From Poseidonibacter ostreae (GTDB lineage: Bacteria > Campylobacterota > Campylobacteria > Campylobacterales > Arcobacteraceae): DNA of 38,318 nucleotides. Under the pieces are notes generated by a model. That model was not told where the DNA came from, did not search any database, and saw only the letters and a list, made by a program, of their open reading frames with translations. Position 1 is the stretch's first letter. Every line of letters starts with the position of its first letter. The translations under genes and the position numbers were made by a program. The stretch is taken from contig NZ_WFKJ01000031.1 of assembly GCF_009208075.1 (NCBI RefSeq), positions 1 through 38,318 of the forward strand, written 5' to 3'. Shown here piece by piece: positions 5,123-37,750 of the stretch.

Positions 5123-5461
5123 TTAAATTTGTAGTAAAGCATCTCTTATTTGCATATAGGCAATTAAAAATTCAAATAGCATTCTCCAAAATAACTCCAT
5201 AAATATAAATACAATAAGAAAGAATAAAATAAATTTAGCTTTTTGTTTTCTAGTTAATATTTTCCATAATAACTCATTTGTATGAGTATATGAAGTTTTT
5301 AGTAGTTTATATTTTCTAATAATCCAAGTTAGTAAAACCCAAGAAAAAATTGGTAAGATAATTGCACCAAGATAATAAAACATTATTAAAGCGTCACTAC
5401 TAATAAAAGTTTTGAATGTTAGAAAATTGCTAAGACAGTCACTAAAAGTTATAGTTTCCAA
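5123..5461 (-). CDS. small two-helix membrane protein, unknown function
   Basis: This 112-residue protein has a hydrophobic segment at about 28-52 (IMFYYLGAIILPIFSWVLLT region) and another at about 76-100 (FILFFLIVFIFMELFW region), separated by a basic loop, so it is probably an inner-membrane protein. The start is a TTG (plus CAA at 5459-5461) with AAGG six bases upstream; the first in-frame ATG is within the first helix. DUF4282-like small membrane proteins have a similar look, but I cannot assign a family. The gene is divergent from the peroxiredoxin and convergent with the rhodanese gene. Confidence 0.55.
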   Translation of the reverse strand: METITFSDCLSNFLTFKTFISSDALIMFYYLGAIILPIFSWVLLTWIIRKYKLLKTSYTHTNELLWKILTRKQKAKFILFFLIVFIFMELFWRMLFEFLIAYMQIRDALLQI

Positions 5462-5564
5462 ATAAAACCTTTTTTTAAATAAGAAATATTATAGCTAAAA
5501 GCATTTAACTAAAGATTTAGTTATTCAGCAATATTAAAAAAGAAAATATGAGAGTGTTATTATA

Positions 5565-5600
5565 AGTAAATCTTATTTACTAAAATAAGATATTCTTATT
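5565..5600. promoter_or_regulatory. tandem inverted repeats upstream of peroxiredoxin gene (candidate operator)
   Basis: Three linked dyads occupy 36 bases: AGTAAAT-CTT-ATTTACT (5565-5581), TCTTATTT-ACTA-AAATAAGA (5571-5590) and AATAAGA-TAT-TCTTATT (5584-5600). All arms are perfect. The half-site TCTTATT thus appears three times in alternating orientation, 85 to 120 bases before the peroxiredoxin start. A peroxide or redox regulator (PerR/Fur class) is plausible from position, but the spacing is not the classical 7-1-7 box. A likely -10 (TATATT or TAGAAT, 5627-5637) lies just downstream. Confidence 0.5.
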
Positions 5601-5684
5601 AAAATTAAGCAAAGTTTTATTTTTATTATATTAGAATACTTTTATCAAAGGAAAAAGATTGTCTTTTGAGAGAAAGGATTTAAT

Positions 5685-6395: not shown

Positions 6396-6416
6396 TATTT
6401 AGCTTCATTAAAAAAA

Positions 6417-6438
6417 GGATTAGTATTAATACTAATCC
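6417..6438. terminator. terminator after the peroxiredoxin gene
   Basis: The perfect inverted repeat GGATTAGTATT / AATACTAATCC is preceded by six A and followed by TTTCTTTT, 22 bases after the peroxiredoxin stop. As drawn there is no spacer, so the central bases form the loop. It should work on the plus strand and probably on the minus strand too. Confidence 0.8.
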
Positions 6439-6459
6439 TTTCTTTTATAAGTTTGATAA

Positions 6460-6531
6460 TTGCGGTCAGCCCTTTGTGTTGTTACTAACATTTGACCGCA
6501 ACTATGAGATTTAACTCTTCATAGGTTTTTT
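6460..6531 (+). ncRNA. candidate structured RNA ending in a terminator-like hairpin
   Basis: The 310 bases between the peroxiredoxin and the aldolase-like gene hold no convincing ORF. Apart from the two gene terminators they contain a GC-richer island. TTGCGGTCA (6460-6468) pairs perfectly with TGACCGCAA (6493-6501), and inside its loop TGTT (6480-6483) pairs with AACA (6487-6490). Directly after comes a second hairpin, CTATGA (6502-6507) with TCATAG (6519-6524), followed by a run of seven T (6525-6531, after one G). Two stems ending in a T-run on the plus strand suggest a small RNA or the remnant of one. I could not identify a promoter with confidence. From 6532 to 6653 I see only AT-rich sequence with one weak hairpin. 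Confidence 0.35.
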
Positions 6532-6660
6532 TGTATCTAATATACTCTGTTCTAGAATAACTTATAAATATTAGTTTTGAATTAGTTGTCTAACTATCAA
6601 TTAATAGAAAATTTCTTTTATCTTTTACTAAATTAATAAATAATTTTTTCCATAAAAAAA

Positions 6661-6682
6661 GGTTAATTCTTTCGAACTAACC
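6661..6682. terminator. terminator after the aldolase-like gene
   Basis: GGTTAATTC (6661-6669) and GAACTAACC (6674-6682) pair with one mismatch around TTTC. A seven-A run on the left is the T-run of the minus strand, 24 bases beyond the aldolase-like stop codon. A T-run on the right makes it potentially bidirectional. Confidence 0.75.
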
Positions 6683-6705
6683 TTTTTGTTTTTTGAAGTA
6701 AATAT

Positions 6706-7674
6706 TTATTCAGCTAATAAATTTCTATAGAAATCTCTATAGTTTGTATCTTTTTCATCTCTAGCTTTCATTGCTGCTCTTGGATGTTCGTTTAATTGTC
6801 CTGTTAACATATATGGAATTGAGTAACCCCAGTCAAGTTCTTTTTCTAATGGAATAATAAACTCTTCAATGAATTTTAATACAGGCATTAATTTATACTT
6901 TGGATTTTTTAAAAAACCAATTAAAAGTTCCATTGGACAATTTCCAGCACCTCTTCCTAATCCAGAGATTGTAACATCAAGAAAACTTGTACCATATGTT
7001 AAAGCTTCAATAGTGTTTGCATATGCTAATTGCATATTATTATGTGCATGAATTCCAATTTGTTTACCATGTGCTTGTGCAATAGTTAAATACTTTTCAG
7101 TTAACTTGTTAATTTGCTCAGGGTAAAATGAACCAAATGAATCAGCAATATAAATTACATCAACACTAGATTTTGCAACAGTTTCTAAAACTTCTGTTAA
7201 CTCATCATCAAATGATTTTGAAATAGCCATAATATTAATAGTAGTTTCATAACCTTTTGCATGAGCTTCTTCTACAAGTTCGATTGCTGCTGGAATTTGG
7301 TGAATATAAGTTGCGATTCTAATCATATCAACAACAGATTCTTCTGCTGGAAGTAATTCTTCATTTACAGTTCTTCCAATATCAGACATTACTGCAATTT
7401 TCATATTAGTATCGTTGTTACCAACAATTCTTCTAATATCTTCTTCTTTACAGAAATTCCAAGGTCCAAACTCTTCTTCACTCATAATTGAAGGTGAATT
7501 GTTTTTTCCAATTTCCATATAATCAATTCCTGCTGCTACACATGTTTCATATTGTGCTTTTACAAAATCATCTGTAAAGTGAAAATTGTTTACTAATCCA
7601 CCATCTCTAATAGTACAATCAAATACTTTTATATCTTCTCTTACTGTAAGTATTGAACCTTTTCTTTCAATCAT
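6706..7674 (-). CDS. DRE-TIM metallolyase superfamily (HMGL-like) aldolase domain protein
   Basis: The 322-residue TIM-barrel protein belongs to the HMG-CoA lyase/isopropylmalate synthase/DmpG superfamily. Its first strand carries FDCTIRDGG (residues 18-26), giving the catalytic Arg-Asp pair R23-D24. The metal-binding histidines are in QIGIHAHNN near residue 205-212, and GLGRGAGNCPMELL supplies the conserved glycine-rich and Asn-Cys segment. It probably makes or breaks a C-C bond next to a 2-oxo acid using a divalent metal. It lacks the long C-terminal regulatory domain of LeuA-type synthases and the communication domain of DmpG, and no pathway partner is adjacent. The substrate is therefore unknown. 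Confidence 0.8.
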   Translation of the reverse strand: MIERKGSILTVREDIKVFDCTIRDGGLVNNFHFTDDFVKAQYETCVAAGIDYMEIGKNNSPSIMSEEEFGPWNFCKEEDIRRIVGNNDTNMKIAVMSDIGRTVNEELLPAEESVVDMIRIATYIHQIPAAIELVEEAHAKGYETTINIMAISKSFDDELTEVLETVAKSSVDVIYIADSFGSFYPEQINKLTEKYLTIAQAHGKQIGIHAHNNMQLAYANTIEALTYGTSFLDVTISGLGRGAGNCPMELLIGFLKNPKYKLMPVLKFIEEFIIPLEKELDWGYSIPYMLTGQLNEHPRAAMKARDEKDTNYRDFYRNLLAE

Positions 7675-7818
7675 AAATACTTCCTATTCTCTTTTAATAA
7701 TTATTGTTGAAATAATATCTTAACACTGCTCAATAGAACTTTAAAATCTTGATTTATTTCAATGAATAGCATAATTATTACATGTATAATATAAAAAATT
7801 AAAAAAATTGGATAAAAA

Positions 7819-8064
7819 ATGAAAAAAACAATAATTACAATTATAAGTACAGCTTTTATTTCTACTCTTTCTGTGCATGCAAGTTCAAAAGTTGAAGTAG
7901 TTACAAACGAGACTTCAGCAATAAATATAAATCAAAAAAAATCTAATGTTACAATTGATGAGTGCAAAAAATATTTAGGTCCTGAGAACTATAATTTTAT
8001 AATTGAAATTTATAGTGATGAAAATATTGCACTTTTAAAATGTGAGCAAGAACTTAAAAAATAG
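7819..8064 (+). CDS. small exported protein, unknown function
   Basis: This is an 81-residue protein with a clear signal peptide (KKTIITIISTAFISTLSVHA, cleavage after VHA), leaving about 58 residues. The mature part contains two cysteines (in DECKKYLG and LLKCEQ) that could form a disulfide in the periplasm. I do not recognise the family. It is divergent from the aldolase-like gene and is followed 73 bases later by the GH114 lipoprotein gene on the same strand. Cotranscription is possible, but the gap is long enough for a separate promoter. Confidence 0.6.
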   Translation: MKKTIITIISTAFISTLSVHASSKVEVVTNETSAININQKKSNVTIDECKKYLGPENYNFIIEIYSDENIALLKCEQELKK

Positions 8065-20067: not shown

Positions 20068-22263
20068 TTATAAACTAGTGATAATTATTGAAAAAATAGC
20101 ACCATCTTTAGAGTTTTTTACATATATATTTCCATTCATTTTTTCTTTAATTATTAGTTTTGTCATATATAATCCAATTCCTGTACCATAGTCATATTTA
20201 GTTGTAAAATATGGGTCAAAAATTTTATCTATAATCTCTTTATCAACGCCACCTGCATTATCCTCAATACATAGTTTTGTTTCTTTATCTTCATCTAGAT
20301 AAATTTTTATTTTAGGATTTTTTATTTTTCTATCAATTAAAATATCTTTAGCATTTGAAATTATATTTACAATTGCTTGTGAGTATTCACTTTTGTAGCC
20401 ATTTATTTTATATTCTAAATTTATAGAAAAAGATATTTCTATTTTATGAAAATTAAGTGTTGCTTTTACAATATTTATAGCACTTGATACTGCGTCTATT
20501 ACTAAAAAGTCCTCTTTTTTAGAGTTTGGATTGAAAAAGTTTCTAAAATCATCTATGGTTCTTGACATATATTCTAATAAATCATTTGCTTCATTTACTC
20601 TATTTGAAAGATATTTTTTATCTAATTCTTTATAATCATAAGCTGATTCAATATCAAAAAATAGACCAGATACTTGAGATAATGGTTGTCTCCATTGATG
20701 TGCAATATTTCCAATCATTTCACCCATTGCAGCCATTTTTGATTTTTGAATAAGCATTTTTTCTTGTTTTAGTTTCTCTTCTTTTAGTAAAGTTCTTTCA
20801 CTAATATCTCTTAAAGATGCAAAAAGTAAATCTTGATTTTCATATGAATAGATAATTACATTTAACTCTACTGTTTTTATTTCATTGTTTTTTGTTATTA
20901 ATTTTATTGTTTTAAATAGAGATTTAGCTTCTAGAATTTCTTTTAAATTTAAGTCTTTAAATAATTTGAAGAAATCTTTATATAAAATCTCTTTTGACTG
21001 GTAGCCTATTGTTTTAAGTGCTGTATTATTAAGACTTAAGATACTAGCTTTTTCATCTTTTATTTCTGAGATTATAAATCCATCATTACTGTAATTAAAA
21101 AGTAGGGCATATTTCTCTTCATTTTGTTTTACAATTTTTCTATATTGATTAAAAAGTTTTTCAATTTTTCTAGTAAATCCTAATGAGAAAATAAAAAATA
21201 TTATAGTCATTATTATCATAATAATAGCAAGTTTAAAAATATTATTATATAAGTTTTCTAAAGAGATTATTCGCTCTTTCTCAATAATATTATTTATATG
21301 TGATAAGTTTACTCCCATACCTATGAAGTAGCGTAAATGTTTTACAAAAGTTCCATATAAAAGTTTATTATTATTTTCATAATAAATATAATCATTTCCT
21401 TTATAGTTAGTCTCAATTAATAAATCTTTTATTGCTTGAAGTTCACTTTTGTTAGGAATAATTTGTTTTTGAGTTAGCAGTTGACTATTTGTAGTGATAT
21501 TATTTAAACTATTTATTTTATATATAAGTACAAACTCTTCAACATTATAATTTTGGTTAAATATCTTTTTTATCATTCTACTTTTTAGCTTTTTCTTTTC
21601 AATTTCTAAAAAACTTCCTGAACCTATAATTATACCTAACTCTTCTAAGTGTCTTGAGTATGTGATTTTCTTGGCTGTTATATTACTTTTTGGTTTATAC
21701 CAAAAATACTCAATGAAGTTTTGTTTTTCTTTTTTAGAGTTAATCATTTCATTTATAAATTTAAAGCCATTTATATCTTCAAAATCTAAAAAAGATTCAT
21801 TTTCATCTTTTGAGTTTTCACTATTTAATAATAATCTTCCTTTTGTATCTAAAATAAAATAGTTTATATCACTCTGTTTTTTTGATATTTGATTTATTGC
21901 AGTTTTAATAAAATTTATTTGTTCTTTTTTTGATAAGTTTTTTGTTTTTTTGTATAGTGAATTTGCAAGATTAAATGCAATTATAGATTGTTTTTCAATT
22001 CTCTCTTTTTTATTATCTAAAATAGATTCTTCTTCAAATTTAATATCATTTAATAAGTTTTGAACTTCTGTTTTTATATAAAACTTTTCTCTTTCAATTA
22101 GTGTATTTTTGAAGTTTTTAATATGATTTTTAAAGTTACTATACTCTGTTTTTATAAGTGTTGAACCAATTACCGTTGCAACAATGATGATAATAATAGT
22201 GGAACTAAGTAGTGTAGTTTTTTTTACACCTTGTTCTATTCTTTTTCTGTAATTAATTTTCAA
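20068..22263 (-). CDS. transmembrane PAS histidine kinase, likely partner of adjacent regulator
   Basis: This 731-residue kinase has a first helix at about 18-38, a periplasmic Cache-like sensor region (about 40-345, with YFILDTKGRLLLNS and IGSGSFLEIEKKKLKSR), a second helix at about 350-372, a PAS domain (about 390-500, YALLFNYSNDGFIISEI to LRDISERTLLKEE), and a core with MIGNIAHQWRQPLSQVSG and IISNAKDILI, DNAGGV and GTGIGLYMT. It starts with a TTG (plus CAA at 22261-22263) inside the last codons of the response regulator, an 11-base overlap that implies coupled translation. Position after tctA and the regulator suggests it controls uptake of the TctC ligand, in the role of TctE but with unrelated length and layout. 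Confidence 0.9.
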   Translation of the reverse strand: MKINYRKRIEQGVKKTTLLSSTIIIIIVATVIGSTLIKTEYSNFKNHIKNFKNTLIEREKFYIKTEVQNLLNDIKFEEESILDNKKERIEKQSIIAFNLANSLYKKTKNLSKKEQINFIKTAINQISKKQSDINYFILDTKGRLLLNSENSKDENESFLDFEDINGFKFINEMINSKKEKQNFIEYFWYKPKSNITAKKITYSRHLEELGIIIGSGSFLEIEKKKLKSRMIKKIFNQNYNVEEFVLIYKINSLNNITTNSQLLTQKQIIPNKSELQAIKDLLIETNYKGNDYIYYENNNKLLYGTFVKHLRYFIGMGVNLSHINNIIEKERIISLENLYNNIFKLAIIMIIMTIIFFIFSLGFTRKIEKLFNQYRKIVKQNEEKYALLFNYSNDGFIISEIKDEKASILSLNNTALKTIGYQSKEILYKDFFKLFKDLNLKEILEAKSLFKTIKLITKNNEIKTVELNVIIYSYENQDLLFASLRDISERTLLKEEKLKQEKMLIQKSKMAAMGEMIGNIAHQWRQPLSQVSGLFFDIESAYDYKELDKKYLSNRVNEANDLLEYMSRTIDDFRNFFNPNSKKEDFLVIDAVSSAINIVKATLNFHKIEISFSINLEYKINGYKSEYSQAIVNIISNAKDILIDRKIKNPKIKIYLDEDKETKLCIEDNAGGVDKEIIDKIFDPYFTTKYDYGTGIGLYMTKLIIKEKMNGNIYVKNSKDGAIFSIIITSL

Positions 22264-22933
22264 GTTTTAATTTATATCCCATATTTGAAATGTTTTTTAT
22301 ACAATTAAAGGGAATCTTTTTTCGTAAAAAACCAATTGTCGTTCTTAATGAGTTTAAACTCATATATTCATCTTCCCAAACATATTGTTCAATCTCTTGA
22401 TAGCTTACAACTTTATCTTTATTTAAAACTAAAAGCTTTAGAAATAATAACTCTTTTTTATTTAATTCTAAAACTTTCTCATCTTTATAGAATAGGGAAG
22501 TTGTATTTGAATAGTAAAAATCTTTACTTAATACTACTTTTTCATCTTTATTCTTTTCTAAATCCTCAACAGCTTTTAATAAAGCAGGAATTAGATTTCT
22601 ACTTGTAAGTGGTTTGATTATATACTTTTCTAATCTTAATTCAATTGCTTCAAGTAAATAATCTTTATCACTAAATGCAGTTGATATTATGATTTTTGTG
22701 TCTTTGTCAGTTTTTCTAATATTTTTTGAAAGTGTTATTCCATCCATCTTTGGCATTCTTATATCTGTTAGAATAATATCTGGATGATATTTTTTATATA
22801 AAGCTAAACCTTCTTCTCCATCTTTAGCTTCATATAGTTTTTTGAACATACGATTTAGAAAACGTGAGTTAATTGTTCTAACTCCCTCATCGTCTTCTAC
22901 ATATAAAATAGTATAGTTCTTAAACTTTTCCAT
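22253..22933 (-). CDS. OmpR-type response regulator (TctD-like role)
   Basis: The 226-residue protein has a receiver domain (1-120; acidic pocket D14-D15, phospho-acceptor D57 in ILTDIRMPKMDG, switch Thr in IISTAFSD and Lys in YIIKPL) followed by a winged-helix DNA-binding domain (about 140-226; KKELLFLKLLVLNKDKVVSY, SLRTTIGFLRKKIP, NISNMGYKLK). It should bind DNA as a phosphorylated dimer. It begins 24 bases after tctA and overlaps the following kinase gene, and AGAGGT precedes its ATG. The layout tctCBA-regulator-kinase parallels TctDE of enterobacteria, so regulation of tricarboxylate-type uptake is likely. Confidence 0.92.
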   Translation of the reverse strand: MEKFKNYTILYVEDDEGVRTINSRFLNRMFKKLYEAKDGEEGLALYKKYHPDIILTDIRMPKMDGITLSKNIRKTDKDTKIIISTAFSDKDYLLEAIELRLEKYIIKPLTSRNLIPALLKAVEDLEKNKDEKVVLSKDFYYSNTTSLFYKDEKVLELNKKELLFLKLLVLNKDKVVSYQEIEQYVWEDEYMSLNSLRTTIGFLRKKIPFNCIKNISNMGYKLKLEN

Positions 22934-22957
22934 ATTAACCTCTTAAAGGTAAAAGCT

Positions 22958-24475
22958 TTAAGCTTCTTTACCTTTTTTCATTTTAACAAAAAATTCACTA
23001 ATAAGTGGCATTAATAACATGATAATTGTAATTATTAAAATACTTAAAGTAATTGGTCTCTCCCAAAGGAAAGCAAAAGATCCATCACTAATAGTTAATG
23101 CACGTCTTAAATTATCTTCCATCATTCCACCTAAGATAAATCCTAAAATCATAGGTGCCATAGGGTAATCAACTATTCGTAAAAATAAAGCAACCACTGC
23201 AAACAGTGTCATCATATAAATATCAAAATTGTTAAATGTAACTAAATAAACGCCAATAAGAGAGAAGAATATAATTAGTGGTAATAATAATTCTTTTTTT
23301 ATTGTTAATAGTTTTGCAATGTATGGAATTAGTGGTAAATTTAGTACTAAAAGTACAGCATTTCCAATATACATTGAAATAATTACAGACCAAAATAGTT
23401 CAGGATTATCTACATACATAGTAGGACCTGGTTGAATTCCATAAGAAATTAATGCACCTAAAATAATTGCTGTAGTTCCAGACCCTGGAATTCCTAAAGT
23501 TAATAAAGGAACAAAAGAACCAGAACATGCAGCATTATTTGCACTCTCAGGAGCTGCAAGTCCTTTAACACTTCCTTTTCCAAATTTTAGTTTCTCTTTT
23601 GCACTTGCAATACTTCGCTCCATTCCATAAGCTAAAAATGAAGCAATTGTTGCACCCGCACCTGGTAATACACCAACAAAGAAACCTAAAACAGATGAAC
23701 GTCCAACAGTTGGAGCCATCTCTTTTACTTCTTCTTTTGTAATTTTTAAAGAACCAATATCTTTTTTTAGTGCATCCATTTCTTCTTTTGTTTGCTTATG
23801 ATTTTCTAAAATATTCATCATAGCTTCAGATAAGGCAAATGCTGCCATTGCTAAAAGTAAAAATGAAATTCCATCAATTAAATCAAGTCTTCCAAAAGTA
23901 AATCTCGCAATTCCTGAATCAGAATCAGTTCCTACAGTTGCAAGCATTAGACCAAATATTGTCATAATAGCAGCTTTTAAAAACTTTCCCTTACCAGCAA
24001 ATGCAGCAACAGCTGTAAGACCTAGAACCATTAAAGCAAAGTAATCAGATGATTGAAAACTTAAACTCACATTTGCTAAAGCAGGTGCTGCAAAAAGTAA
24101 AAATACTGCTGCAATAGTTCCACCTGTAAAAGATGAATAAGCTGCAATTGCTAAAGCTTTTCCTGCATGTCCATTTTTTGCCATTGGATAACCATCAAAA
24201 GAACTAGCAACCGTTCCAGCAACTCCTGGAGCGTTGATTAAAATTGAAGAAGTAGAACCTCCGAAAATTGCACCATAATAAACACCAGCGATTAAAATAA
24301 GGCCAGAAGAGGGCTCCATTCCATAAGTTATTGGAATCATTAATGCAATTGCAGAAATAGGTCCAAGTCCTGGAAGCATTCCAATAAATGTTCCAGCAAA
24401 ACATCCAACTGCAACCATCATAATATTATATGTAGTAAACGCAGTAACTACACCTGTTAAAATACCATCCATCAT
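22958..24475 (-). CDS. tctA: tripartite tricarboxylate transporter large permease TctA
   Basis: The 505-residue membrane protein matches TctA in length and sequence. The signature GMLPGLGPISAIALMIPITYG near residue 30 and YGAIFGGSTSSILINAPG near residue 67 form the family substrate/ion region. The second repeat has GVLPGAGATIASFLAYG near 265 and PLLTLGIPGSGTTAIILGALI near 325, reflecting the internal duplication. About 12 helices are expected. It imports a carboxylate by sodium or proton symport using TctC. The tctB stop and tctA start overlap by four bases (ATGA). Confidence 0.95.
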   Translation of the reverse strand: MMDGILTGVVTAFTTYNIMMVAVGCFAGTFIGMLPGLGPISAIALMIPITYGMEPSSGLILIAGVYYGAIFGGSTSSILINAPGVAGTVASSFDGYPMAKNGHAGKALAIAAYSSFTGGTIAAVFLLFAAPALANVSLSFQSSDYFALMVLGLTAVAAFAGKGKFLKAAIMTIFGLMLATVGTDSDSGIARFTFGRLDLIDGISFLLLAMAAFALSEAMMNILENHKQTKEEMDALKKDIGSLKITKEEVKEMAPTVGRSSVLGFFVGVLPGAGATIASFLAYGMERSIASAKEKLKFGKGSVKGLAAPESANNAACSGSFVPLLTLGIPGSGTTAIILGALISYGIQPGPTMYVDNPELFWSVIISMYIGNAVLLVLNLPLIPYIAKLLTIKKELLLPLIIFFSLIGVYLVTFNNFDIYMMTLFAVVALFLRIVDYPMAPMILGFILGGMMEDNLRRALTISDGSFAFLWERPITLSILIITIIMLLMPLISEFFVKMKKGKEA

Positions 24476-24957
24476 GACTCAACTCCTACAAAATACTCAT
24501 AAACCATACCTGGGTCTATATAAACACCTAAAACATTGTTTAATAATAAATAAAACCCGATTGAAACACCACTTGAAATTAATAATATCCTTTTTATATT
24601 TTTCTCTTTTAGTAATAAAAATCCAATTGTTAAAAAGATTATAGTTGCTATTATAAAACCTAATGTTCTAATTGTAAAACCATAAAAAAGCATAGCTAGA
24701 ACAAAATAGAAAGTTGTTTTAAAATCTAATTTTCTTAAGTATTCTAAAGTTAGAAAATCATTATCTTTTTTTACAAAAGAAAGAACTAGTATAAGTGAAG
24801 AGATAATTATTCCACCCAATCCTAAATAAAAAGGAAAAGTAGATGCTGTCATCACTTCAAATTGAGAACCTGGCATTTTTTTAATACTAAAAACATTAAA
24901 AAAATAAAAGCTTGAAAAAGCTAAAAAAAATATTGAACCTATTGCATTTTTTGTCAT
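24472..24957 (-). CDS. tctB: tripartite tricarboxylate transporter small permease TctB
   Basis: This 161-residue protein has four predicted helices (about 7-26, 41-62, 80-97 and 104-142 as a pair) and the typical TctB start FFLAFSSFYFFNVFSIKKMPG, with a periplasmic PGSQFEV loop. TctB proteins are short and poorly conserved, so position between tctC and tctA supports the call strongly. It has AAAGGA before its ATG. It completes a three-gene secondary transporter in the order tctC, tctB, tctA. Confidence 0.9.
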   Translation of the reverse strand: MTKNAIGSIFFLAFSSFYFFNVFSIKKMPGSQFEVMTASTFPFYLGLGGIIISSLILVLSFVKKDNDFLTLEYLRKLDFKTTFYFVLAMLFYGFTIRTLGFIIATIIFLTIGFLLLKEKNIKRILLISSGVSIGFYLLLNNVLGVYIDPGMVYEYFVGVES

Positions 24958-24998
24958 ATTATTATCCTTTAATAAGAAGAGCTTACGCTCTACTTATT

Positions 24999-25970
24999 TT
25001 ATAGAAATCCCATTTCTTTCATTAAAGAATCAATAACTTCTTCTTGTTTCTCTAAAAATGATTTAAACTCAGCTCTTGGTTGATATAAGTTTGCCCAACC
25101 ATTTCTTTTTCTTACAACTTCCCATTCAGGAGTGTCATACATTTTTCCAATTACATCAGCAAATGCTTGTGTTTTTTCTTCAGAAAGGTTTGGAGCTCCA
25201 AAGAATCCTCTCCAGTTTGCGAAAAATGCATCAGCACCCATACTTTTAAAACTAGGAATTCCATCAATGCTTTCATTAGAAGTTACACCAATAATTTTAA
25301 GTTCACCTTTTTTATGCTTTTCTAATACTTCACCAAGACCAGTTGAAAGAACATCTACTTCACCTGTTAATAATCCAGCTAAGGCTTTTCCACCTGCGTC
25401 ATAAGGTACATATCTTACAGATGTTGGATTTCCACCAGCAGCTTTAAAAATTTGTGCAGCAACTAAGTGATCCATTGAACCTCTTGAACTTCCACCTGCA
25501 ATTTTTACTTTTCTTGGACTTTTTTCAAATGCAGCTTTTACATCAGCCCATGATTGATATTTAGAGTCTTTCTTTACAACTAACACACCATAATCAGCAA
25601 CAACAGAAGATACTAATGTTAAGTCTCTAAAAGATTGAGGAAATACACCTTGAAGTGATCTAATTACTATTGGAGTTGAATTTACCATTAAAGTATTTTG
25701 TTGTTTTTTAGCAGTTTCAATAATATAAGCAATGGCTTTTCCTCCACCACCACCTGACATATTTTCAAATGAAGTTTCTTGAACTAGGTTTGATTTTTTT
25801 AAAGCTTCACCAACACCTCTAGCAGTTCCATCCCAACCGCCACCAGCACCACCTGGAATAAGGAAGTGAACCTTATCAACACTTGCTGCTACTGAAGATG
25901 TAGCAAGTCCTGCAACTAAACATCCTGCGAAAGCAAGATTTTTGTAAACTTTTGTCATTGAATTTTTCAT
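24999..25970 (-). CDS. tctC: TctC-type periplasmic tricarboxylate-binding protein
   Basis: The 323-residue protein has a signal peptide ending LATSSVAAS and then the TctC/Bug solute-binding fold. Typical stretches are FLIPGGAGGGWDGTARGVG (the first ligand loop), ENMSGGGGGKAIAYI, KVKIAGGSSRGSMDHLVAA and RYVPYDAGGKALAGLLTGEVD. It captures a carboxylate such as citrate or another small acid in the periplasm and hands it to TctAB. The acid is not readable from sequence. It is the first gene of the transporter operon, has AAAGGA before its start, and lies just after the tRNA-Ser gene on the same strand. Confidence 0.93.
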   Translation of the reverse strand: MKNSMTKVYKNLAFAGCLVAGLATSSVAASVDKVHFLIPGGAGGGWDGTARGVGEALKKSNLVQETSFENMSGGGGGKAIAYIIETAKKQQNTLMVNSTPIVIRSLQGVFPQSFRDLTLVSSVVADYGVLVVKKDSKYQSWADVKAAFEKSPRKVKIAGGSSRGSMDHLVAAQIFKAAGGNPTSVRYVPYDAGGKALAGLLTGEVDVLSTGLGEVLEKHKKGELKIIGVTSNESIDGIPSFKSMGADAFFANWRGFFGAPNLSEEKTQAFADVIGKMYDTPEWEVVRKRNGWANLYQPRAEFKSFLEKQEEVIDSLMKEMGFL

Positions 25971-26769: not shown

Positions 26770-27885
26770 TTATAAATCATCAAATTCTAAAATAAATTTA
26801 ACACCATCAACAGAGTTTTCTAGACTTAATTTACCTGCAAAACTATTCATAACTACTAGTTTTACCATATATAATCCTACTCCTGTTCCCTCAGATTTTG
26901 TTGTAAAGTACGGATCAAATAGTTTTTCTAAGTTAGACTCTTTAATTCCACCTGCATTATCTCCAATAACAAGATAGTGTTTACTGTCTTTTGAGTAACA
27001 TTCAATAGTAATATCTCTTTTCTCAATATTTCTTTCATTAAATGCTTGTATCGAGTTTGTTAGTATATTTACTATAACTTGTGACATCTCCATTTTTACA
27101 CCAAATAGTTTAAAGTTATCATCAATATTTTTTGTAATTACTACATTATTATTGTTAACTAAAGATTCAATAAGAGAAAAACTATACTCAATTGCATCAA
27201 GGATAGCAAACTCTTCTTTACTTTTATCTGGATTAAAAAAACCTAAGAAATCATCAATTGTATCAGACATATAATGTATTTGTTTTTTTGTATTTTCAGA
27301 GAACTCTTTTATTTGTTGATCATTAAGTTCATTAAAATTATATGAGAACTTAATATCATCACAATAAAGAGATAAAATATTTAAAGGCTGTTTTAATTGA
27401 TGTGAAATAAGTCCAATCATTTCTCCTAAGCTAGCCATTTTAGTGTTATGAGTAATTATTGCATTTGCTTGTGTTAAGGATTTTTTTGTTTTTTTGTTTT
27501 CATTAAATAATTGAATATAAACTTTTAGTTTTGATATTAAAAGAGTATCATCTATAGGTTTACTAATATATTCAATAGCTCCTAATTCATAACCTTTTTT
27601 CTGATAAGCATCTTTATCATATATACCTGTAATAAATATAATTGGTATATCTTTTGTTTTTTCAACAGATTTTAAATATTTAGCAAATTCAAAACCATCA
27701 ACTTCTGGCATTTGTACATCACTTAAGATTAAATCTATATCGTTATTCATTAAACATTCAACGGCACTATTTGCATTATCTGCTGTAAAAACATTTAAAT
27801 CAAATGCGTCATTAATTAAAAGTTCTAATGAATAAATATTCTCTTGTACATCATCTAAGATTAGAATAGAAAACTTATTTTCCAT
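26770..27885 (-). CDS. soluble receiver-kinase hybrid (REC-HisKA-HATPase)
   Basis: The 371-residue protein has an N-terminal receiver (1-125; acidic pocket D11-D12, phospho-acceptor D56 in ILSDVQMPEVDGFEF, Lys in YISKPID) followed by a kinase core. The core has ASLGEMIGLISHQLKQPLNIL with H162, then NILTNSIQAF, GDNAGGIKE and GTGVGLYMVK. There is no membrane segment, so it is cytoplasmic. Such a reversed hybrid can receive phosphate from another kinase and pass a signal on through its own H-box. It is the last gene of the five-gene operon, 14 bases after the transmembrane kinase gene, with AAGGACTC before its ATG. Confidence 0.92.
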   Translation of the reverse strand: MENKFSILILDDVQENIYSLELLINDAFDLNVFTADNANSAVECLMNNDIDLILSDVQMPEVDGFEFAKYLKSVEKTKDIPIIFITGIYDKDAYQKKGYELGAIEYISKPIDDTLLISKLKVYIQLFNENKKTKKSLTQANAIITHNTKMASLGEMIGLISHQLKQPLNILSLYCDDIKFSYNFNELNDQQIKEFSENTKKQIHYMSDTIDDFLGFFNPDKSKEEFAILDAIEYSFSLIESLVNNNNVVITKNIDDNFKLFGVKMEMSQVIVNILTNSIQAFNERNIEKRDITIECYSKDSKHYLVIGDNAGGIKESNLEKLFDPYFTTKSEGTGVGLYMVKLVVMNSFAGKLSLENSVDGVKFILEFDDL

Positions 27886-27899
27886 GATATGAGTCCTTA

Positions 27900-29756
27900 T
27901 TATACATTTGTAATTTCCTTATTTATATTAGATTTATTAATTTTAAGACAGATATTATTATCATATTGAGAATAAGTATCTTCACTCTTATCCTCATAAA
28001 TTGCTATTATCTTCTTTTGTTCTTCTATTTCTATCTCTTCAAGCTCTTCTTTTTTAATACTTGAAAAATCTATTATGGTCTTTACTATACTATTTTTTTT
28101 ATAAATATTTAAAAACTCTTTTGTATTACTTACTTGAAAAACATTATATTTTTTTCCTAGTTTTATCGTTACATTAAAGAAAAACATTGGGTCACTATTA
28201 AAAATAAGAATACTCTCTTTTTCTTGATATTTATTAATAGGTTCTTCTTTCTTTTCACTTATTTCAATTCTTTCGATTTCACTCTCTTCATCTATTTTTG
28301 TAAGATTAATATCTATATCATTTTGATTTTTCTTTGGAATAGTTAATTTAAAGTTACTACCAACATTTTCAGTACTTTGAATATGAATTGTTCCTTTTAA
28401 TAGAAGTGCTAATTCTTGTGATATAGCAAGACCTAATCCAGTTCCCCCATATTGTCTGGAAGTACTTGAATCAACTTGTTTAAACCTATCAAATATATGA
28501 GCTAGTTTCTCTTGAGGAATTCCAATTCCCTCATCATTTACACTAATAGTAATATTTTTATCTTCATCTTTTACAATTAAGCTAATTGTTCCTTCTTTTG
28601 TAAATTTTAATGAATTACTTAAAAGGTTTTTGATTATTTGATTTATCTTATTTTCATCAGAATATATTGTTGTAAGTGTTGAATCAATATCTAATACAAA
28701 GTTTAAGTTCTTTTCTTTTGCTTGTGGTTTTATTAAGTCATAGACTTGTGTAATAAATTTATGAATATTTATCTCTGCATAATTTATTTTTATTTCATGT
28801 GCTTCAAGCTTTGATATATCTAATACATCATTAACTAAATATAATAAATCATTTCCACATTTATTTATAATTTCTAAACTTTTTATCTGTTTTTCATTTA
28901 GATTATTATCTCTATTTCTTTTCATTACTGAAGAGACTACATTTATTGAGTTTAATGGTGTTTTTAATTCATGACTCATATTTGCTAAAAAATCATCTTT
29001 TGCTTTATTCGCTCTTATTAGTTCTTCTTTTTGCTCTTCTAGTTTTTTATTAGTATGAATTAATTGATAATTTCTCTTTTTTAAATCCTCTTGCATCTCA
29101 CTCATGGACTTTGACAAAATACCTATTTCATCTTTAGTATTAGTAAAAGGAACTTCAATATTTTCTTCTTTTCCTATTTTGATTGCAATATTAGATAATT
29201 GTGTTAATTTTTTAGTTAATCTACTGCCTAAAATATAAGATAGTAAAGTTGATATAATTATTTCAATAAAGATAATAAAAAGAGTTCTTGTTTTATTGTC
29301 TTCAATAGATTTTGAGCTACTAGTTGTATCAAATATAATGTATAAAGAGCAAACTAGCGTTTCCTCTTCAAAAATTTCTTTATAGATAATCTCATATGTT
29401 TTATTATCTACTTCAACACTTTTATTCTCTTTAATTTTTAATAAATCTTCTTCTTTTAAATGCTTATATGTATATCTACTTGATAAGATTCTATCATGTG
29501 AATCTAAAACAATAATAGAGTTTATATACTTATTAGTATTTGCATTTGTTACTAAATCGTCAAGTGTTCCTATATCGTATATACTAACTGGTACTTTTAC
29601 TAATTGTCCTAATAGAGTAACATTAGATTCAATTTTTTCATTTGTTAAGTTTTTTGTAGAAGTATTAATTGTAAAAAAGTTTACTGATACAATTAATATA
29701 ATAAAAAAAGTTTCTAATAGTACAAAGGATAATATAAAACGATATTTAAAAGACAT
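27900..29756 (-). CDS. transmembrane histidine kinase with degenerate C-terminal receiver
   Basis: This 618-residue protein has helices at about 8-28 and 155-176 around a periplasmic domain, a HAMP domain (about 176-228), and a coiled coil. The kinase core has FLANMSHELKTPLNSINVVS (His near 262), NQIIKNLLSNSLKF, NDEGIGIP and GGTGLGLAIS, so it is an ArcB/BarA-like class, unlike the HQWRQPL kinases around it. Residues about 510-618 look like a receiver remnant: strand ILIFNSDP replaces the usual DD pocket, IIDFSS holds a possible acceptor Asp, and LKINKS ends in a Lys. Its ATG abuts the stop of the binding-protein gene (TAGATG), so the two are translationally linked. Confidence 0.9.
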   Translation of the reverse strand: MSFKYRFILSFVLLETFFIILIVSVNFFTINTSTKNLTNEKIESNVTLLGQLVKVPVSIYDIGTLDDLVTNANTNKYINSIIVLDSHDRILSSRYTYKHLKEEDLLKIKENKSVEVDNKTYEIIYKEIFEEETLVCSLYIIFDTTSSSKSIEDNKTRTLFIIFIEIIISTLLSYILGSRLTKKLTQLSNIAIKIGKEENIEVPFTNTKDEIGILSKSMSEMQEDLKKRNYQLIHTNKKLEEQKEELIRANKAKDDFLANMSHELKTPLNSINVVSSVMKRNRDNNLNEKQIKSLEIINKCGNDLLYLVNDVLDISKLEAHEIKINYAEINIHKFITQVYDLIKPQAKEKNLNFVLDIDSTLTTIYSDENKINQIIKNLLSNSLKFTKEGTISLIVKDEDKNITISVNDEGIGIPQEKLAHIFDRFKQVDSSTSRQYGGTGLGLAISQELALLLKGTIHIQSTENVGSNFKLTIPKKNQNDIDINLTKIDEESEIERIEISEKKEEPINKYQEKESILIFNSDPMFFFNVTIKLGKKYNVFQVSNTKEFLNIYKKNSIVKTIIDFSSIKKEELEEIEIEEQKKIIAIYEDKSEDTYSQYDNNICLKINKSNINKEITNV

Positions 29757-30542
29757 CTATTTCTTCACATTTAAATTTCTAATTACATCATATTCAGATG
29801 TATTGGTTTTTATAAACTCTTTGATACTTAAAATACTTTTTATCTCTTTTGGCATATTTAAAAATACATTTTGAAGTTTTTGAATATCTTCTTTTTTAAC
29901 TCTTGGATGATAAGCTATTGGATGACTTGGATATTTAGCTGTTTTATATACAATATTTAACTTATTTTTGTCGGTGTTGTTTTTGAAATTATTATATGTT
30001 CTATTAATTCCCCCACCAATATATCCAATATCTCTTGAGATACCTTTATATACAGAATCATGAGAGTTTACATATAATACTTTTGCCTCTTTATCTATAT
30101 CAAAATCAAATTTGTTTTTAAATTCATATTTTGGTAATAGTGTTGCTGCAAAGGCATTTGGTGCAGGAAATAAAAATACTTTTCCTTTTAAATTTTCTTT
30201 TGAAAAATCGACTTTCTTTTCTTTTGAAAGCACAATTCCTTGAATATTTTTTTGCGCTCTTATAAAAGCAGTGAAACTAGCTTCCTTATTAGCAACTACA
30301 AAATGATATGGATTCATATACGCTATATCGTATTTTCCGTTATACAACTCTTTTTCAAAGTTAGGAATAGATCTCTCTGTTTTAAAAACTACATTTATCC
30401 CTGTTTGCTCTTTTAAGTAGTTTGTAACAATTAGCCATTTTTTAGATAGTTTTAAAGGACTTTGCTGTGGAACAACACCAAGAACTAAATCTGTTGAAAA
30501 TGCATAAGTTGTTATTAGTAGTAAAGCAATTGTTTTTTTCCT
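29757..30542 (-). CDS. PhnD-like periplasmic binding protein gene lacking a normal start codon
   Basis: The reading frame is open from 30542 to a stop at 29757-29759. It codes for a signal peptide (KKTIALLLITTYAFS) and then a phosphonate-binding-like fold: VLGVVPQQSPLKLSKKW, YNGKYDIAYMNPYHFVVA, FLFPAPNAFAATLLPKYEF and VYKGISRDIGYIG. At the position where ATG should be (30542-30540) the codon is AGG, with AAAAAGG seven to eight bases upstream, so one T-to-G change explains the loss. The only conventional in-frame start is a TTG at 30347, which would delete the signal peptide and 65 residues. It may be a pseudogene, or start at a rare codon such as the ATT four codons later. It lies between the REC-PAS gene and the transmembrane kinase gene it probably serves. 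Confidence 0.7.
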   Translation of the reverse strand, partial: RKKTIALLLITTYAFSTDLVLGVVPQQSPLKLSKKWLIVTNYLKEQTGINVVFKTERSIPNFEKELYNGKYDIAYMNPYHFVVANKEASFTAFIRAQKNIQGIVLSKEKKVDFSKENLKGKVFLFPAPNAFAATLLPKYEFKNKFDFDIDKEAKVLYVNSHDSVYKGISRDIGYIGGGINRTYNNFKNNTDKNKLNIVYKTAKYPSHPIAYHPRVKKEDIQKLQNVFLNMPKEIKSILSIKEFIKTNTSEYDVIRNLNVKK

Positions 30543-30567
30543 TTTTTTTCCTTTTTATATATTATCT

Positions 30568-31860
30568 TTATTTGCCAAAAGATAAGAGTGATTTATTCGT
30601 TTTTAATTTTTCATTTTCATTTTCTAAGTTTGAGACTAAATCTTTTAAATTATTTATTCTTTTAATAAAGTCTACTTCTTTTTCTCTGTAACTTTCAAGT
30701 GCTGTATTATTTCTTTCTTCTAGTTTTAGCAGTTCTTCTATTTGTTTTTCTAATTTTGCATTTAAACTTTTTGCTTTTGTTAAAGAATCATATATTATAT
30801 CAAATTGTTTGTTCTTATCTTTTTTTGCCATTAATTGTAGTTTAGAGTTTTCTAAGTTATTTTGCTCATATGATTCTAATTGTTTTAATAAATCAACTCT
30901 TTTATTATTTATTTCATTATATCTTGTCTCATAATCATGCATATTCTTAATTAAACTTGCAGTCTCTTCTTTACTTGTATTTAATTCTTTTTGCATATTT
31001 GCAATACTTTTTTTATAAAAACTAATTTGCTGCAAAATATTTTTATTATTTTGTCTTTTAATATGTTCTTCTTCTGTATTAATAAATTGGATATATAAAT
31101 ATTCTTCTATTTCTTTTCCTGTGCTATCATATAATGGTACGATTTTAGATTTTGAGAAATATTCACTATTATCTTTTGCTCTATTTTTATATGTTCCTGT
31201 CCATGTTTCACCTTTTAATACTGTTTTCCATATATTTTTAACAATAGAATCTGATACATCAGGATGCTTAGTTATATAGTAGGGTTGACCAATTAGTTCT
31301 TCTTCATTATAAAGTGATATATTACAAAAAGCTTCATTTACAAAAGTAATAATTCCCTCTTTATTTATTTTTGAGACAATTGCTTCTTGATTAATAATAC
31401 TAATATAGTTTTCAAGCTCTTTTTTTTGACTTTCATAACTACTTCTGTAAAATAAATCTTTTGTAATTTTTTCTAATTTTGCATCGATTACTTCTAAATC
31501 TAAAGGCTTTGTAATATAATCTTCTACATGAAGATGAATGGCTTTTAATAAATTACTTGTTTCAGTTCTAGCTGTAATTAAAATAACAGGTATAGTTGAA
31601 TCAATTTCTCTGATTTTTTCAAGCATTGTAATACCATCCATCATCGGCATATTTATATCACTAATAATTAAATCAAATTTTTCATTCTTTGATTTTTTTT
31701 CATGAAACTTTATAAGGCCTTCTGCTCCGTTAATTGAGGATTCTATATTATTAAATTTACGACTTAAAAATTTTGTTAATTTCTCTCTAGTAGTGTCATC
31801 ATCTTCAACATATAAAATATTAATCTCTTTTTTATATATTTCAAATTCTTTCATTTTCAA
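30568..31860 (-). CDS. REC-PAS-coiled coil protein without output domain
   Basis: This 430-residue soluble protein has a receiver (about 10-135; DD pocket near 20-21, phospho-acceptor D68 in LIISDINMPMMDG, Lys in YITKPLD), then a PAS domain (about 150-265; KEGIITFVNEAFCNISLYNEEELIG, YITKHPDV, TWTGTYKNRAKDN), close to the Aer-type redox PAS subgroup. The rest (about 270-425) is a long coiled coil full of Lys, Glu and Asn. No kinase, cyclase or DNA-binding domain is present, so it may be a scaffold or a regulated protein-protein connector. Its ATG overlaps the end of the OmpR-type regulator gene by 20 bases. Confidence 0.9.
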   Translation of the reverse strand: MKMKEFEIYKKEINILYVEDDDTTREKLTKFLSRKFNNIESSINGAEGLIKFHEKKSKNEKFDLIISDINMPMMDGITMLEKIREIDSTIPVILITARTETSNLLKAIHLHVEDYITKPLDLEVIDAKLEKITKDLFYRSSYESQKKELENYISIINQEAIVSKINKEGIITFVNEAFCNISLYNEEELIGQPYYITKHPDVSDSIVKNIWKTVLKGETWTGTYKNRAKDNSEYFSKSKIVPLYDSTGKEIEEYLYIQFINTEEEHIKRQNNKNILQQISFYKKSIANMQKELNTSKEETASLIKNMHDYETRYNEINNKRVDLLKQLESYEQNNLENSKLQLMAKKDKNKQFDIIYDSLTKAKSLNAKLEKQIEELLKLEERNNTALESYREKEVDFIKRINNLKDLVSNLENENEKLKTNKSLLSFGK

Positions 31861-32584
31861 TCCTTATTTGATAACCTAATCCATAAATATTTTTAATATT
31901 TAATTCAGGTATTTTTTTTCTAATCCTAGATATTAGATTCTTAAGATTTATTACTGCTGTTTCAAAATCTAAACAATCTTCCCAAAGTTTGTATATGATT
32001 ATTTCTGAACTAACTGTATTATTTAGATTTATAAATAGTTCATTGAGTAATTCAACTTCTTTTTTAGTTAGTGTAATAATAGAATCATTAAAATGTAGGT
32101 TTTTTGTTTTTAAATTCCAGTAAAAATTGTCTTTTATAAAAATAATATCTGATTCTTTTTTTAAAAATTCTTCTTTGTATTTTTTCTTTGTAGTTTTATT
32201 TATACTTGCAATTAATTCTGTTATTGATATGGGTTTTGTCAAATAGTCATTTATATCTAACTTTACTACTTTTAATAAAGTATCTAGTTCTAAATGAGCA
32301 GTTAGAAAAATAAAGGGTATAAACTCATCTATAATTCTAATATGTTCTAAAAGTTCTATCCCATTTATCTTGGGCATATTTAAATCACTAATAATTAAAT
32401 CAAAGTATTTATCTTTTGAATAGTAATCTTTAAATTTTACTAATGCTTCACTTCCGTTTTCTGCAACAACAACGTTTGCATATACTTTATTTAGCATTTT
32501 ATGTAATTTTTCAAGAGTTTGAATATCATCTTCAACGAGTAATATTCTAATGTTTCTATAGTTGTTATTTAGTATGTATTCCAT
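31841..32584 (-). CDS. OmpR-type response regulator heading the five-gene operon
   Basis: The 247-residue protein has a receiver (10-130; acidic pocket D19-D20, phospho-acceptor D67 in IISDLNMPKINGIELL, Thr in FLTAHLEL and Lys in YLTKPIS) and a winged-helix domain (about 165-247; ITLTKKEVELLNELF, NLKNLISRIRKKIP, NIYGLGYQIRIE). It is the probable DNA-binding output of the downstream kinases. The promoter region upstream (32585-32794) contains on the minus strand a TATAAT at 32649-32644, inside a palindrome (32639-32651). The next gene starts inside its 3' end. Confidence 0.9.
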   Translation of the reverse strand: MEYILNNNYRNIRILLVEDDIQTLEKLHKMLNKVYANVVVAENGSEALVKFKDYYSKDKYFDLIISDLNMPKINGIELLEHIRIIDEFIPFIFLTAHLELDTLLKVVKLDINDYLTKPISITELIASINKTTKKKYKEEFLKKESDIIFIKDNFYWNLKTKNLHFNDSIITLTKKEVELLNELFINLNNTVSSEIIIYKLWEDCLDFETAVINLKNLISRIRKKIPELNIKNIYGLGYQIRIENERI

Positions 32585-35343: not shown

Positions 35344-36738
35344 TTAGTAAAGTTTTTTATTTAGGCTTAATTCAATGCTGAATTTAGCTCCTATATATTT
35401 AACAGATTCATATGTATATTCATTATTTGAAACACTAATTTCTCCATTTAAATGAGTTGTAATAATATCATGACTCATATATAAACCAATTCCTGTACCT
35501 ACAGATTGATGTTTAGTTGTAAAGTAAGGTTCAAATATCTTTTCTATTATATGTTCTTTTATTCCACCAGCATTATCTATTATTTCTACACATAAAACAT
35601 TGTCTTTTTTATATGTATTTATAATGATTAATTTGTCTCCGTCTTCTTTTTCAAGTAGTGCATCTTTTGCGTTATTCAAAATATTTATTAATACTTGAAT
35701 AAATTCGTTTTCAATAGATTCAATAGTAATATTTTGAATATTTTTTATTATTTTTATCTCATTAGCTATAAATTGAGAACCAATCATATTTAATACTTTG
35801 TCAATAGTGTTAGAAATATCAATCTCTTCTATCTTTCTATTATTAGGATCAAGAAAACCTCTAAAATCTTCTATTGTTTGTGATAGGTATTGTGCTGAAT
35901 CATTAATGGAATCCATTGCTCTATATAAATCTTTATCCTCTAGTACCTCCATCTCTTTATGCAATTTTATTCCTGTTGCTGCAGTTGAAATAACACTTAA
36001 AGGTTGTCTCCATTGATGTGCAATATTACCTAACATTTCACCTAATGAAGCCATTTTTGATTGTTCTGCCAGAAGCTTTGTTTTATTTCTATTCTCTTTT
36101 ATTTCGTTATCTAATTGTCTTATCATTTCATTTATATTATTTGCTAAATCTTTGAATTCATCATTAGTATTCATTTCAATGGGTTTATGTAAGTTATTAA
36201 GCTTTATCTCTTGTGTACTTTTTGAAATAAAATTAATTTTATTAATAAGAAAATATTTTATAATTAAGATTAATAGTAAAATTAATAAACTTGTAACAAA
36301 GATTGATACAAAAACTATATCTTTAATTCTTTTATCTATAAGTTTAGAGTTTTCTAAATTTGAGATACTTACAACAACTTTTGCTAAGATTTGGTCATTA
36401 ATTACAACATTAGATTTGAATAAACTTTTTTTATCTTCACTCATTCCTTTCTTAAAAGTTTGAGATACGATTTTCTTATTAATAATTACTCTTATTGTGG
36501 CAATGTTTTTATATGCGTGAGAAGTATTTTCAACTATAGTATCAATAGCAGAATAATCTTTTAGTAATACAGAATCTAAAATAGATATAGAAATAGTATT
36601 TACAATTGTTTTTCCTTGTTCATTTTGTAGTTTTTCAAGAAAGTTTTTTTCATCTTTAATTATAAAAAATCCAAAGAATGATAATAAAGACATCACGCTA
36701 ATTAAAACTGTTGCTGTTATTTTAAATGTTAGTTTCAT
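35344..36738 (-). CDS. transmembrane histidine kinase paired with PhnD-like binding protein
   Basis: This 464-residue protein has helices at about 6-27 and 140-165 around a short periplasmic segment of about 110 residues, then a HAMP domain (about 165-215), a coiled coil, and an HQWRQPL core: MASLGEMLGNIAHQWRQPL, ILNNAKDALL, IDNAGGIKE and GTGIGLYMS. Its ATG overlaps the TGA of the upstream binding-protein gene by one base (TGATG). The periplasmic part is too small for a large ligand-binding domain of its own, so the binding protein may supply the ligand, as LuxP does for LuxQ. The core closely matches the 17926 kinase. No response regulator is adjacent. Confidence 0.92.
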   Translation of the reverse strand: MKLTFKITATVLISVMSLLSFFGFFIIKDEKNFLEKLQNEQGKTIVNTISISILDSVLLKDYSAIDTIVENTSHAYKNIATIRVIINKKIVSQTFKKGMSEDKKSLFKSNVVINDQILAKVVVSISNLENSKLIDKRIKDIVFVSIFVTSLLILLLILIIKYFLINKINFISKSTQEIKLNNLHKPIEMNTNDEFKDLANNINEMIRQLDNEIKENRNKTKLLAEQSKMASLGEMLGNIAHQWRQPLSVISTAATGIKLHKEMEVLEDKDLYRAMDSINDSAQYLSQTIEDFRGFLDPNNRKIEEIDISNTIDKVLNMIGSQFIANEIKIIKNIQNITIESIENEFIQVLINILNNAKDALLEKEDGDKLIIINTYKKDNVLCVEIIDNAGGIKEHIIEKIFEPYFTTKHQSVGTGIGLYMSHDIITTHLNGEISVSNNEYTYESVKYIGAKFSIELSLNKKLY

Positions 36739-37565
36739 CAGAATCTAGATGAATTATCCATACTTTCTTTAATAATAGTATAGTCATCATCCATTGCCTC
36801 TAAGAAAGCAGTTTTTTTAATCGATTTTAATACTTCTTTATCTTTTAAATTTAATAAAGATTTTTTTAAAGTATTGTAAACCTTATCATCCAGCCCAGCT
36901 TTTACTAACCATGGTTTTGTAATATTTTGGAAGCTAGCAATACTTTTTAATCCTCTGTTTTTATATTTTTTATATGAACTCTCTTTTACAACTCCTGAAT
37001 CAAAGTCTCCATGTACAACTGCTAAGGCAACCTTGTCATGTCTATTTAAATAATCGAATTTTTTTAAATCTTTTGAGGTAATATTAACTTTTAAGAGTTC
37101 ATTTTGAGCTAAATATCTTCCTATAGTTGATTGTTTATCTCCAAATGCAAAACTTTTGTTTTTTAAATCTTTTAAAGACTTTATAGTTGAGCCTTTTCTT
37201 ACTATAAAAACTCCATTAAAAACTTTTTTTCCTTTATGCTCTTCTTTTACAAGAAGCTTTATATCTTTATTTCTTTGTTTTGCTAAGATGTAACTAGCTG
37301 GTCCAAATCGTGCGAAATCATAATCTCCTTTAACTATACCTTCTAAAGCACTTTCATAAGATGGATATATTTTAATAGAGATTTTTAAATCAAGTCCTTG
37401 TTTTTTTGCATCTTTTTCTAAATATTTAATGATTGGACTAAATTGCTTATACATAACAGAAGCTTTATCTGAAGTATAAACACCAAACTTTAAATCTATT
37501 GCATAAGTACTTGTAAGAAAAGACAATAGTAAAAAAAGTAAAATTATATTTTTATTTTTTTTCAT
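36738..37565 (-). CDS. PhnD-like phosphonate-type periplasmic binding protein
   Basis: Translation most likely starts at ATG 37565 (MKKNKNIILLFLLLS, with GAGGG five bases upstream), giving 275 residues; an earlier ATG at 37604 would add 13 residues before the signal peptide. The signal peptide ends TSTYA. The mature protein is a type-2 binding fold of the PhnD/phosphonate-bd family: LKFGVYTSDKASVMYKQFSP, YDFARFGPASYILA, FGDKQSTIGRYLAQNELL, VHGDFDSGVVKESSY. Phosphate-type ligand loops are typical of the family but the actual ligand is unknown. No phosphonate ABC permease or ATPase is adjacent, which supports a sensory role with the overlapping kinase gene. Confidence 0.88.
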   Translation of the reverse strand: MKKNKNIILLFLLLSFLTSTYAIDLKFGVYTSDKASVMYKQFSPIIKYLEKDAKKQGLDLKISIKIYPSYESALEGIVKGDYDFARFGPASYILAKQRNKDIKLLVKEEHKGKKVFNGVFIVRKGSTIKSLKDLKNKSFAFGDKQSTIGRYLAQNELLKVNITSKDLKKFDYLNRHDKVALAVVHGDFDSGVVKESSYKKYKNRGLKSIASFQNITKPWLVKAGLDDKVYNTLKKSLLNLKDKEVLKSIKKTAFLEAMDDDYTIIKESMDNSSRF

Positions 37566-37750
37566 TAAACCCTCTTTATAGATTACATGGTTTTGAATCT
37601 TCATAATAACAAAATAATAAATAAAATCTTCTTGTTACCATATTTAATTATAAATATATCAATATAATAATTATACATTAATATACTTAATACAAGAACT
37701 AATTAGTAGATTTGTTAAGAGATTTTAAAGCAGGTGCTTTTTTATTTCTA

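Follow-up and report, generated by a model that had tools for sequence, protein, structure and literature searches.

The question raised by this locus of Poseidonibacter ostreae is whether five adjoining signalling genes form a single circuit and, if so, which known systems that circuit resembles. The window, i.e. the whole stretch of DNA analysed (38,318 nucleotides), is the complete contig C82 of a draft genome in 156 contigs. The initial annotation had described five genes, and all five ORFs were recovered on the reverse strand between 32584 and 26770, in the order and with the spacing given there (Table 1); Pfam agreed with every domain call, detecting HAMP, HisKA and HATPase in the membrane kinase and REC, HisKA and HATPase in the soluble one. 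The genes for the response regulator (RR) and the REC-PAS-coiled-coil protein (REC-PAS-coil) overlap by 14–20 nt, depending on the start of the latter. That start is probably, by comparison with the relative G006, the ATG at 31854, and counted from there the phospho-Asp D68 becomes D66. Gaps of 25, 0 and 14 nt follow, separating REC-PAS-coil from the binding protein, the binding protein from the membrane kinase HK1, and HK1 from the soluble REC-kinase, respectively. Scans for promoters and terminators inside the block returned matches at chance level. An acidic pair and a Lys accompany the phospho-Asp in the receivers of RR (D67), REC-PAS-coil (D68) and the REC-kinase (D56), and H-boxes are present in HK1 (H262) and the REC-kinase (H162), in agreement with the three intact receivers and two kinase cores previously reported. 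An Hpt domain, also reported as lacking, was found by Pfam in none of the five block proteins, and the five Hpt matches in the same genome are all on contigs other than that of the window.

Table 1. Features of the five-gene block, with positions in the window
Feature	Position	Strand	Basis
OmpR-type response regulator (RR): REC D67 and winged helix	31841..32584	-	ORF, Pfam REC+Trans_reg_C
REC-PAS-coiled-coil protein, without recognised output domain; phospho-Asp D68	30568..31860	-	Pfam REC+PAS
PhnD-fold periplasmic binding protein	29757..30542	-	Pfam Phosphonate-bd PF12974, E 1e-44
HK1, membrane sensor kinase: Cache/PAS-like periplasmic domain, HAMP, HisKA (H262), HATPase, pseudo-receiver	27900..29756	-	
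Pseudo-receiver tail of HK1; acidic pair replaced by N-S, Asp kept	27903..28220	-	
Soluble REC-kinase: REC D56, HisKA H162, HATPase; LvrB-like architecture	26770..27885	-	

The initial annotation had treated the five genes as one operon. Of the 24 Arcobacteraceae loci that carry the binding-protein gene, the window is the only one with the exact order, and because lack of conservation in relatives had been set beforehand as the refuting result, the strict claim of a conserved operon fails. Judged from the sequences, the block is a junction of two modules, one made up of the binding protein and HK1 and the other of RR, REC-PAS-coil and the REC-kinase.

The binding-protein gene is present in 24 of the 104 Arcobacteraceae genomes, the window counted, and a gene for an HK1-type membrane protein lies directly downstream in all 23 of the loci that are not cut inside it (the G017 gene includes a run of unread bases, and in G026 HK1 is interrupted further on). 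Every full Arcobacteraceae locus pairs the binding protein with a sensor kinase or a GGDEF protein, and the same binding-protein/kinase pairing is seen in nearly all distant relatives from Gammaproteobacteria and Planctomycetota, Rhodocyclaceae L029 being one exception. By profile comparison, homology of the membrane sensor domains extends across phyla (hhalign 98.5 %, E 3e-15). In G078, G080 and G081 (genus g10), the front end is joined to PAS-GGDEF and the kinase has been replaced. The pairing across the family and across phyla, together with the PAS-GGDEF swap, therefore marks the pair as a portable sensor, and the binding protein and HK1 very probably form a sensor pair. These neighbourhoods also support the earlier suggestion of a sensory rather than a transport role for the binding protein. 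Structure comparison (Foldseek/VIA) with the AlphaFold model of HK1 placed its periplasmic domain among Cache/PAS-like domains, with WalK (Z 12) and LuxQ (Z 10.8) among the nearest, and named no ligand. A literature search on Arcobacter binding-protein kinases returned nothing relevant. PAS-GGDEF proteins with the binding-protein front end are encoded at L073 6255–8249 and L074 6568–8235, both on the reverse strand.

The start of the binding-protein gene requires comment. The codon at 30542–30540 (reverse strand) is AGG in the window assembly and ATG in G006, though the bases upstream and the first signal-peptide codons after it are identical in the two. The frame holds no ATG, GTG or TTG ahead of 30347, a position that falls within the mature protein. 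The AGG reflects either an error in sequencing or a genuine start loss, and the sensor may be silent or unmade in the window strain; the anatomy of the block is unchanged.

The AlphaFold model of the binding protein (pLDDT 92) has the PtxB/PhnD/ArrX fold, and its structural matches include ArrX and AioX. The arsenic-oxyanion pocket of AioX is formed by C106, S161 and S163, which are conserved in ArrX (PMC5908839). In the binding protein, A-F-A aligns with the S-F-S of ArrX and N77 with its Cys, while the His is kept. N77 is invariant in 31 sequences, and the oxyanion-binding serines are replaced across the binding-protein family. Hence, the pocket gives no support for either arsenic or phosphate as ligand. 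The PhnD NCBIfam model scored 71.7 bits on this protein, short of the cut-off of 261. A gene of the Na/Pi-cotransporter family lies directly 3′ of HK1 in G024 (L036 5362–7098, reverse strand), a single case that was not used in considering the ligand.

The C-terminal tail of HK1 had been described as a degenerate receiver, and this description stands: the tail has no PF00072 match in Pfam and carries N-S in place of the acidic pair, but a profile comparison identifies it as derived from a receiver (probability 93.5, E 2e-7). HK1 thus does not have the intact C-terminal receiver of the ArcB/TorS class (acidic pair, Asp, Thr/Ser, Lys). The kinases of G011 and G107, by comparison, combine the HK1 sensor domain with an intact receiver, their tails scoring 1e-29 and 3e-27 against PF00072, and have no REC companion beside them. 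The kinases collected from these loci include 44 whose cores share 47 % identity or more with that of the window, and none of these has an intact receiver motif. One is truncated, and the other 43, in which the tail is complete, all finish in a pseudo-receiver regardless of sensor; so do eight additional kinases encoded elsewhere in the same genomes. Kinases with cores no more than 45 % identical mostly have intact receivers. Given that the phosphosite Asp is retained in most pseudo-receivers, some residual phosphorylation may occur.

In a tree of the kinase cores, kinases of different sensor types cluster by lineage, and the window HK1 groups with both HK1 and the soluble kinase HK2 of G006 (support 100/99). 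The core of the window kinase is about equally close to both, and its origin as an HK1-HK2 fusion was considered but is not supported, as the N-terminal half of the window kinase and a stretch near its end side with G006 HK1 (residues 571–600, 53 % identity to HK1 against 33 % to HK2). Two tandem kinases of G089 (L094 6215–10556) differ in length and N-terminus, yet their cores are identical in the tree, which is what recent gene conversion would produce. Two more pseudo-receiver kinases were seen in the genome of the window (L108 1554–3983, reverse strand; L109 1416–3314, forward strand), both unlinked to its only REC-kinase of this family.

The REC-kinase was detected in 45 of the 104 family genomes, and all 45 also carry a kinase with the HK1 core; neither is present in 55, and four have the kinase only, using E-value cut-offs of our choosing. 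The Fisher value for this co-occurrence, 3e-25, is overstated because genomes of one family are not independent. A kinase with the HK1 core lies directly upstream of 34 of the 58 REC-kinases, and six have no such kinase nearby. At E 1e-70, the REC-kinase was not found in the non-family genomes of a 200-genome sample of the order. In 23 of the 26 loci looked at, REC-PAS-coil has a relative no more than about 8 kb from the REC-kinase, a proportion that leans upward because some loci were picked as both genes scored. The window REC-kinase shares 83 % identity with that of G006, with receiver and H-box kept, and the next closest are from genus g19 (63–67 %). Four g19 genomes (G101, G102, G104 and G115) have orthologues of the window RR (50–53 %), REC-PAS-coil (44–46 %) and REC-kinase (63–67 %) arranged around the soluble HK2, and the binding protein is absent from that place. 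A gene for a FIST protein is found upstream of HK2 in G102, G104, G105 and G115. The G006 locus includes, in order, RR, REC-PAS-coil, the binding protein, HK1, an opposite-strand regulator, FIST, HK2 and the REC-kinase; relative to it, the window is missing the FIST, HK2 and reverse-strand regulator genes. No FIST gene adjoins the REC-kinase in the genome of the window, which has two FIST_C matches elsewhere. The same parts are found in a different order in genus g10 (G060, G069, G077).

As the same RR, REC-PAS-coil and REC-kinase surround FIST and a soluble kinase in sister genomes, and both sensors are found together in G006, the window looks like the product of a sensor swap. The sequences show the binding protein and HK1 in the place taken in relatives by FIST and the soluble kinase, beside the same hub genes. 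Most simply, the sensor pair would have been inserted first and FIST-HK2 lost afterwards, a direction that we infer, with G006 as an apparent intermediate. Transposase-like genes were seen at several of these loci; they interrupt HK1 in G026 (L037 11422–12786) and HK2 in G069 (L069 around 6000–8000), and split FIST from HK2 in G060 (L072 around 4800–6400).

The initial annotation had stated that the architecture matches no named system. This holds for the combination but not for its halves, each of which resembles a named one. The binding protein and HK1 resemble AioXSR, ArxXSR and ArrXSR, in which a PhnD-fold periplasmic sensor serves a membrane histidine kinase and a regulator (PMC5908839). 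The differences from these systems are the arsenic pocket of AioXSR and ArrXSR, which is replaced here, the pseudo-receiver on the kinase, and the added REC-kinase and REC-PAS-coil. No arsenic oxidase or reductase genes were recognised among the neighbouring ORFs read. The other half resembles LvrA/LvrB of Leptospira, where a sensor kinase gene likewise adjoins that of a soluble REC-DHp-CA kinase (PMC5863495, PMC13269768). Most of the REC-kinase aligns with LvrB (371 aa, for a model of 377 positions), and its phosphosites, D56 and H162, correspond to D56 and H161 of LvrB (PMC13269768). However, the NCBIfam scores fall well short of the cut-offs for both LvrA (167 bits, cut-off 1200) and LvrB (77.5 bits, cut-off 500), and the sensor and the downstream regulators are different, LvrC, the downstream partner of LvrB, combining a REC with an anti-sigma effector domain (PMC5863495, PMC13269768). 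The block is thus a member neither of the arsenic systems, based on the pocket, nor of the named Lvr families, based on the cut-offs, and by analogy the best model is AioX/ArrX-like sensing joined to an LvrA/LvrB-like step.

Other systems share single features with the block. In LuxP-LuxQ and TorT-TorS, a separate periplasmic binding protein also acts through a kinase, and the Cache-like periplasmic domain of LuxQ resembles that of HK1. LuxQ signals via the HPt protein LuxU. In structure and phylogeny, LuxP and TorT stand apart from the AioX group (PMC5908839). NosP-NahK recalls the FIST/HK2 gene pair of G006 and genus g19, in which a FIST protein accompanies a histidine kinase, but the FIST protein, where scanned, scores 21.6 bits against the NosP cut-off of 450, and the window has no FIST gene. 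The GacS/RetS multikinase networks include several sensor kinases with related cores and one downstream partner (PMC8175716), whereas the sensor kinases considered here have pseudo-receivers and would converge on a partner that is itself a REC-controlled kinase.

On balance, we think the block is probably a signalling hub conserved in Arcobacteraceae, with its sensor swapped and a relay running through the REC-kinase. We infer the phosphotransfer wiring from the sequences as follows. The ligand-loaded binding protein would dock on the periplasmic domain of HK1 and alter its activity, with HK1 autophosphorylating on H262. The HK1 pseudo-receiver is probably unable to take the phosphate, which would pass in trans to D56 of the REC-kinase. 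The phosphorylated REC would then free the REC-kinase for self-phosphorylation on H162, a step borrowed from LvrB, which shares its architecture and phosphosites (PMC13269768). The REC-kinase would in turn phosphorylate D67 of RR, leading to transcription, and also REC-PAS-coil, a second branch that may be a scaffold or a sink. That the REC-kinase is the shared partner of the pseudo-receiver kinases is quite likely; for its feeding both RR and REC-PAS-coil, the chances are evenly balanced. Counting against a relay, cores at 47–67 % identity could reflect shared ancestry and gene conversion and not a common partner.

Two readings dispense with the relay. The block could be two ordinary systems that touch, an AioXSR-like set of binding protein, HK1 and OmpR-type regulator, and a REC-kinase left over from a decayed FIST module and outside the circuit. 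This would fit the restriction of the five-gene order to the window, the lack of FIST and HK2 partners for the window REC-kinase, and the several genomes, such as those with the G011 and G118 loci, in which the binding protein and HK1 have no REC-kinase within reach. It is nevertheless unlikely, as the supposed remnant keeps its receiver, its H-box and its high identity to the G006 protein, and HK1 ends in a pseudo-receiver like the kinases beside REC-kinases elsewhere; furthermore, the order binding protein, HK1, REC-kinase is found in G106 (g19), and REC-only homologues directly follow HK1 in G103, G108, G109 and G110. A branched network, with HK1 acting directly on RR and REC-PAS-coil and the REC-kinase serving as a phosphate sink or as a second, independent kinase on the same RR, is distinctly improbable. 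All three receivers are intact and those of RR and REC-PAS-coil are close (47–49 % identical), which speaks for such a network, but the constant companion of this kinase class is the REC-kinase and not RR, and about half of the REC-kinase loci lack an OmpR-type regulator of this family.

We give hardly any credence to the idea of a binding protein that works for an ABC transporter of phosphonate or phosphite and adjoins a kinase by chance. The protein does belong to PF12974 and has the PtxB/PhnD fold, and genes for phn-type (PhnE-type) permeases exist in the genome. However, these are on contig C70, beside a binding protein of their own that scores better against PF12974, and no phosphonate permease or ATPase gene is near the block. 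The consistent pairing with sensor kinase or GGDEF partners and the replaced oxyanion-binding serines also count against this idea, and a role in phosphonate transport was rejected.

The preferred reading, a relay through the REC-kinase, can be extended tentatively to a plug-in hub, which is plausible but somewhat doubtful. Kinases with a shared core and a conserved pseudo-receiver would carry exchangeable sensors (the binding protein with Cache, FIST, another small binding-protein-like partner, and dCache), and all would feed one REC-kinase and through it the OmpR-type regulator and REC-PAS-coil. During swaps, the fit between cores and hub would be maintained by gene conversion, and the pseudo-receiver would have been conserved for a role in control instead of being a product of decay.

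Further sensory genes were observed in the window, all on the reverse strand. A second PhnD-type binding protein directly precedes a membrane histidine kinase of the AtoS/TtrS type (35344–37604), approximately 2.7 kb upstream of the block, and an MCP signalling domain is cut by the contig end (37751–38317). On the other side, at 20068–25970, there are three genes resembling a tripartite tricarboxylate transporter set, then an OmpR-type regulator and a dCache-PAS kinase.

The apparent replacement of a sensor beside a conserved receiver-controlled kinase provides an example of new sensors being re-plugged into one fixed hub. The workings of pseudo-receivers in sensor kinases and of REC-controlled kinases are poorly known (PMC12632262, PMC13269768). 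If the hub is real, the Arcobacteraceae would hold a family of sensor kinases whose pseudo-receivers are conserved, together with a REC-controlled kinase outside Leptospira. They would also offer a natural series of sensor swaps around a fixed phosphorelay, with G006 as the apparent intermediate, and a test bed for how kinase cores stay matched to their partner while the sensors change.
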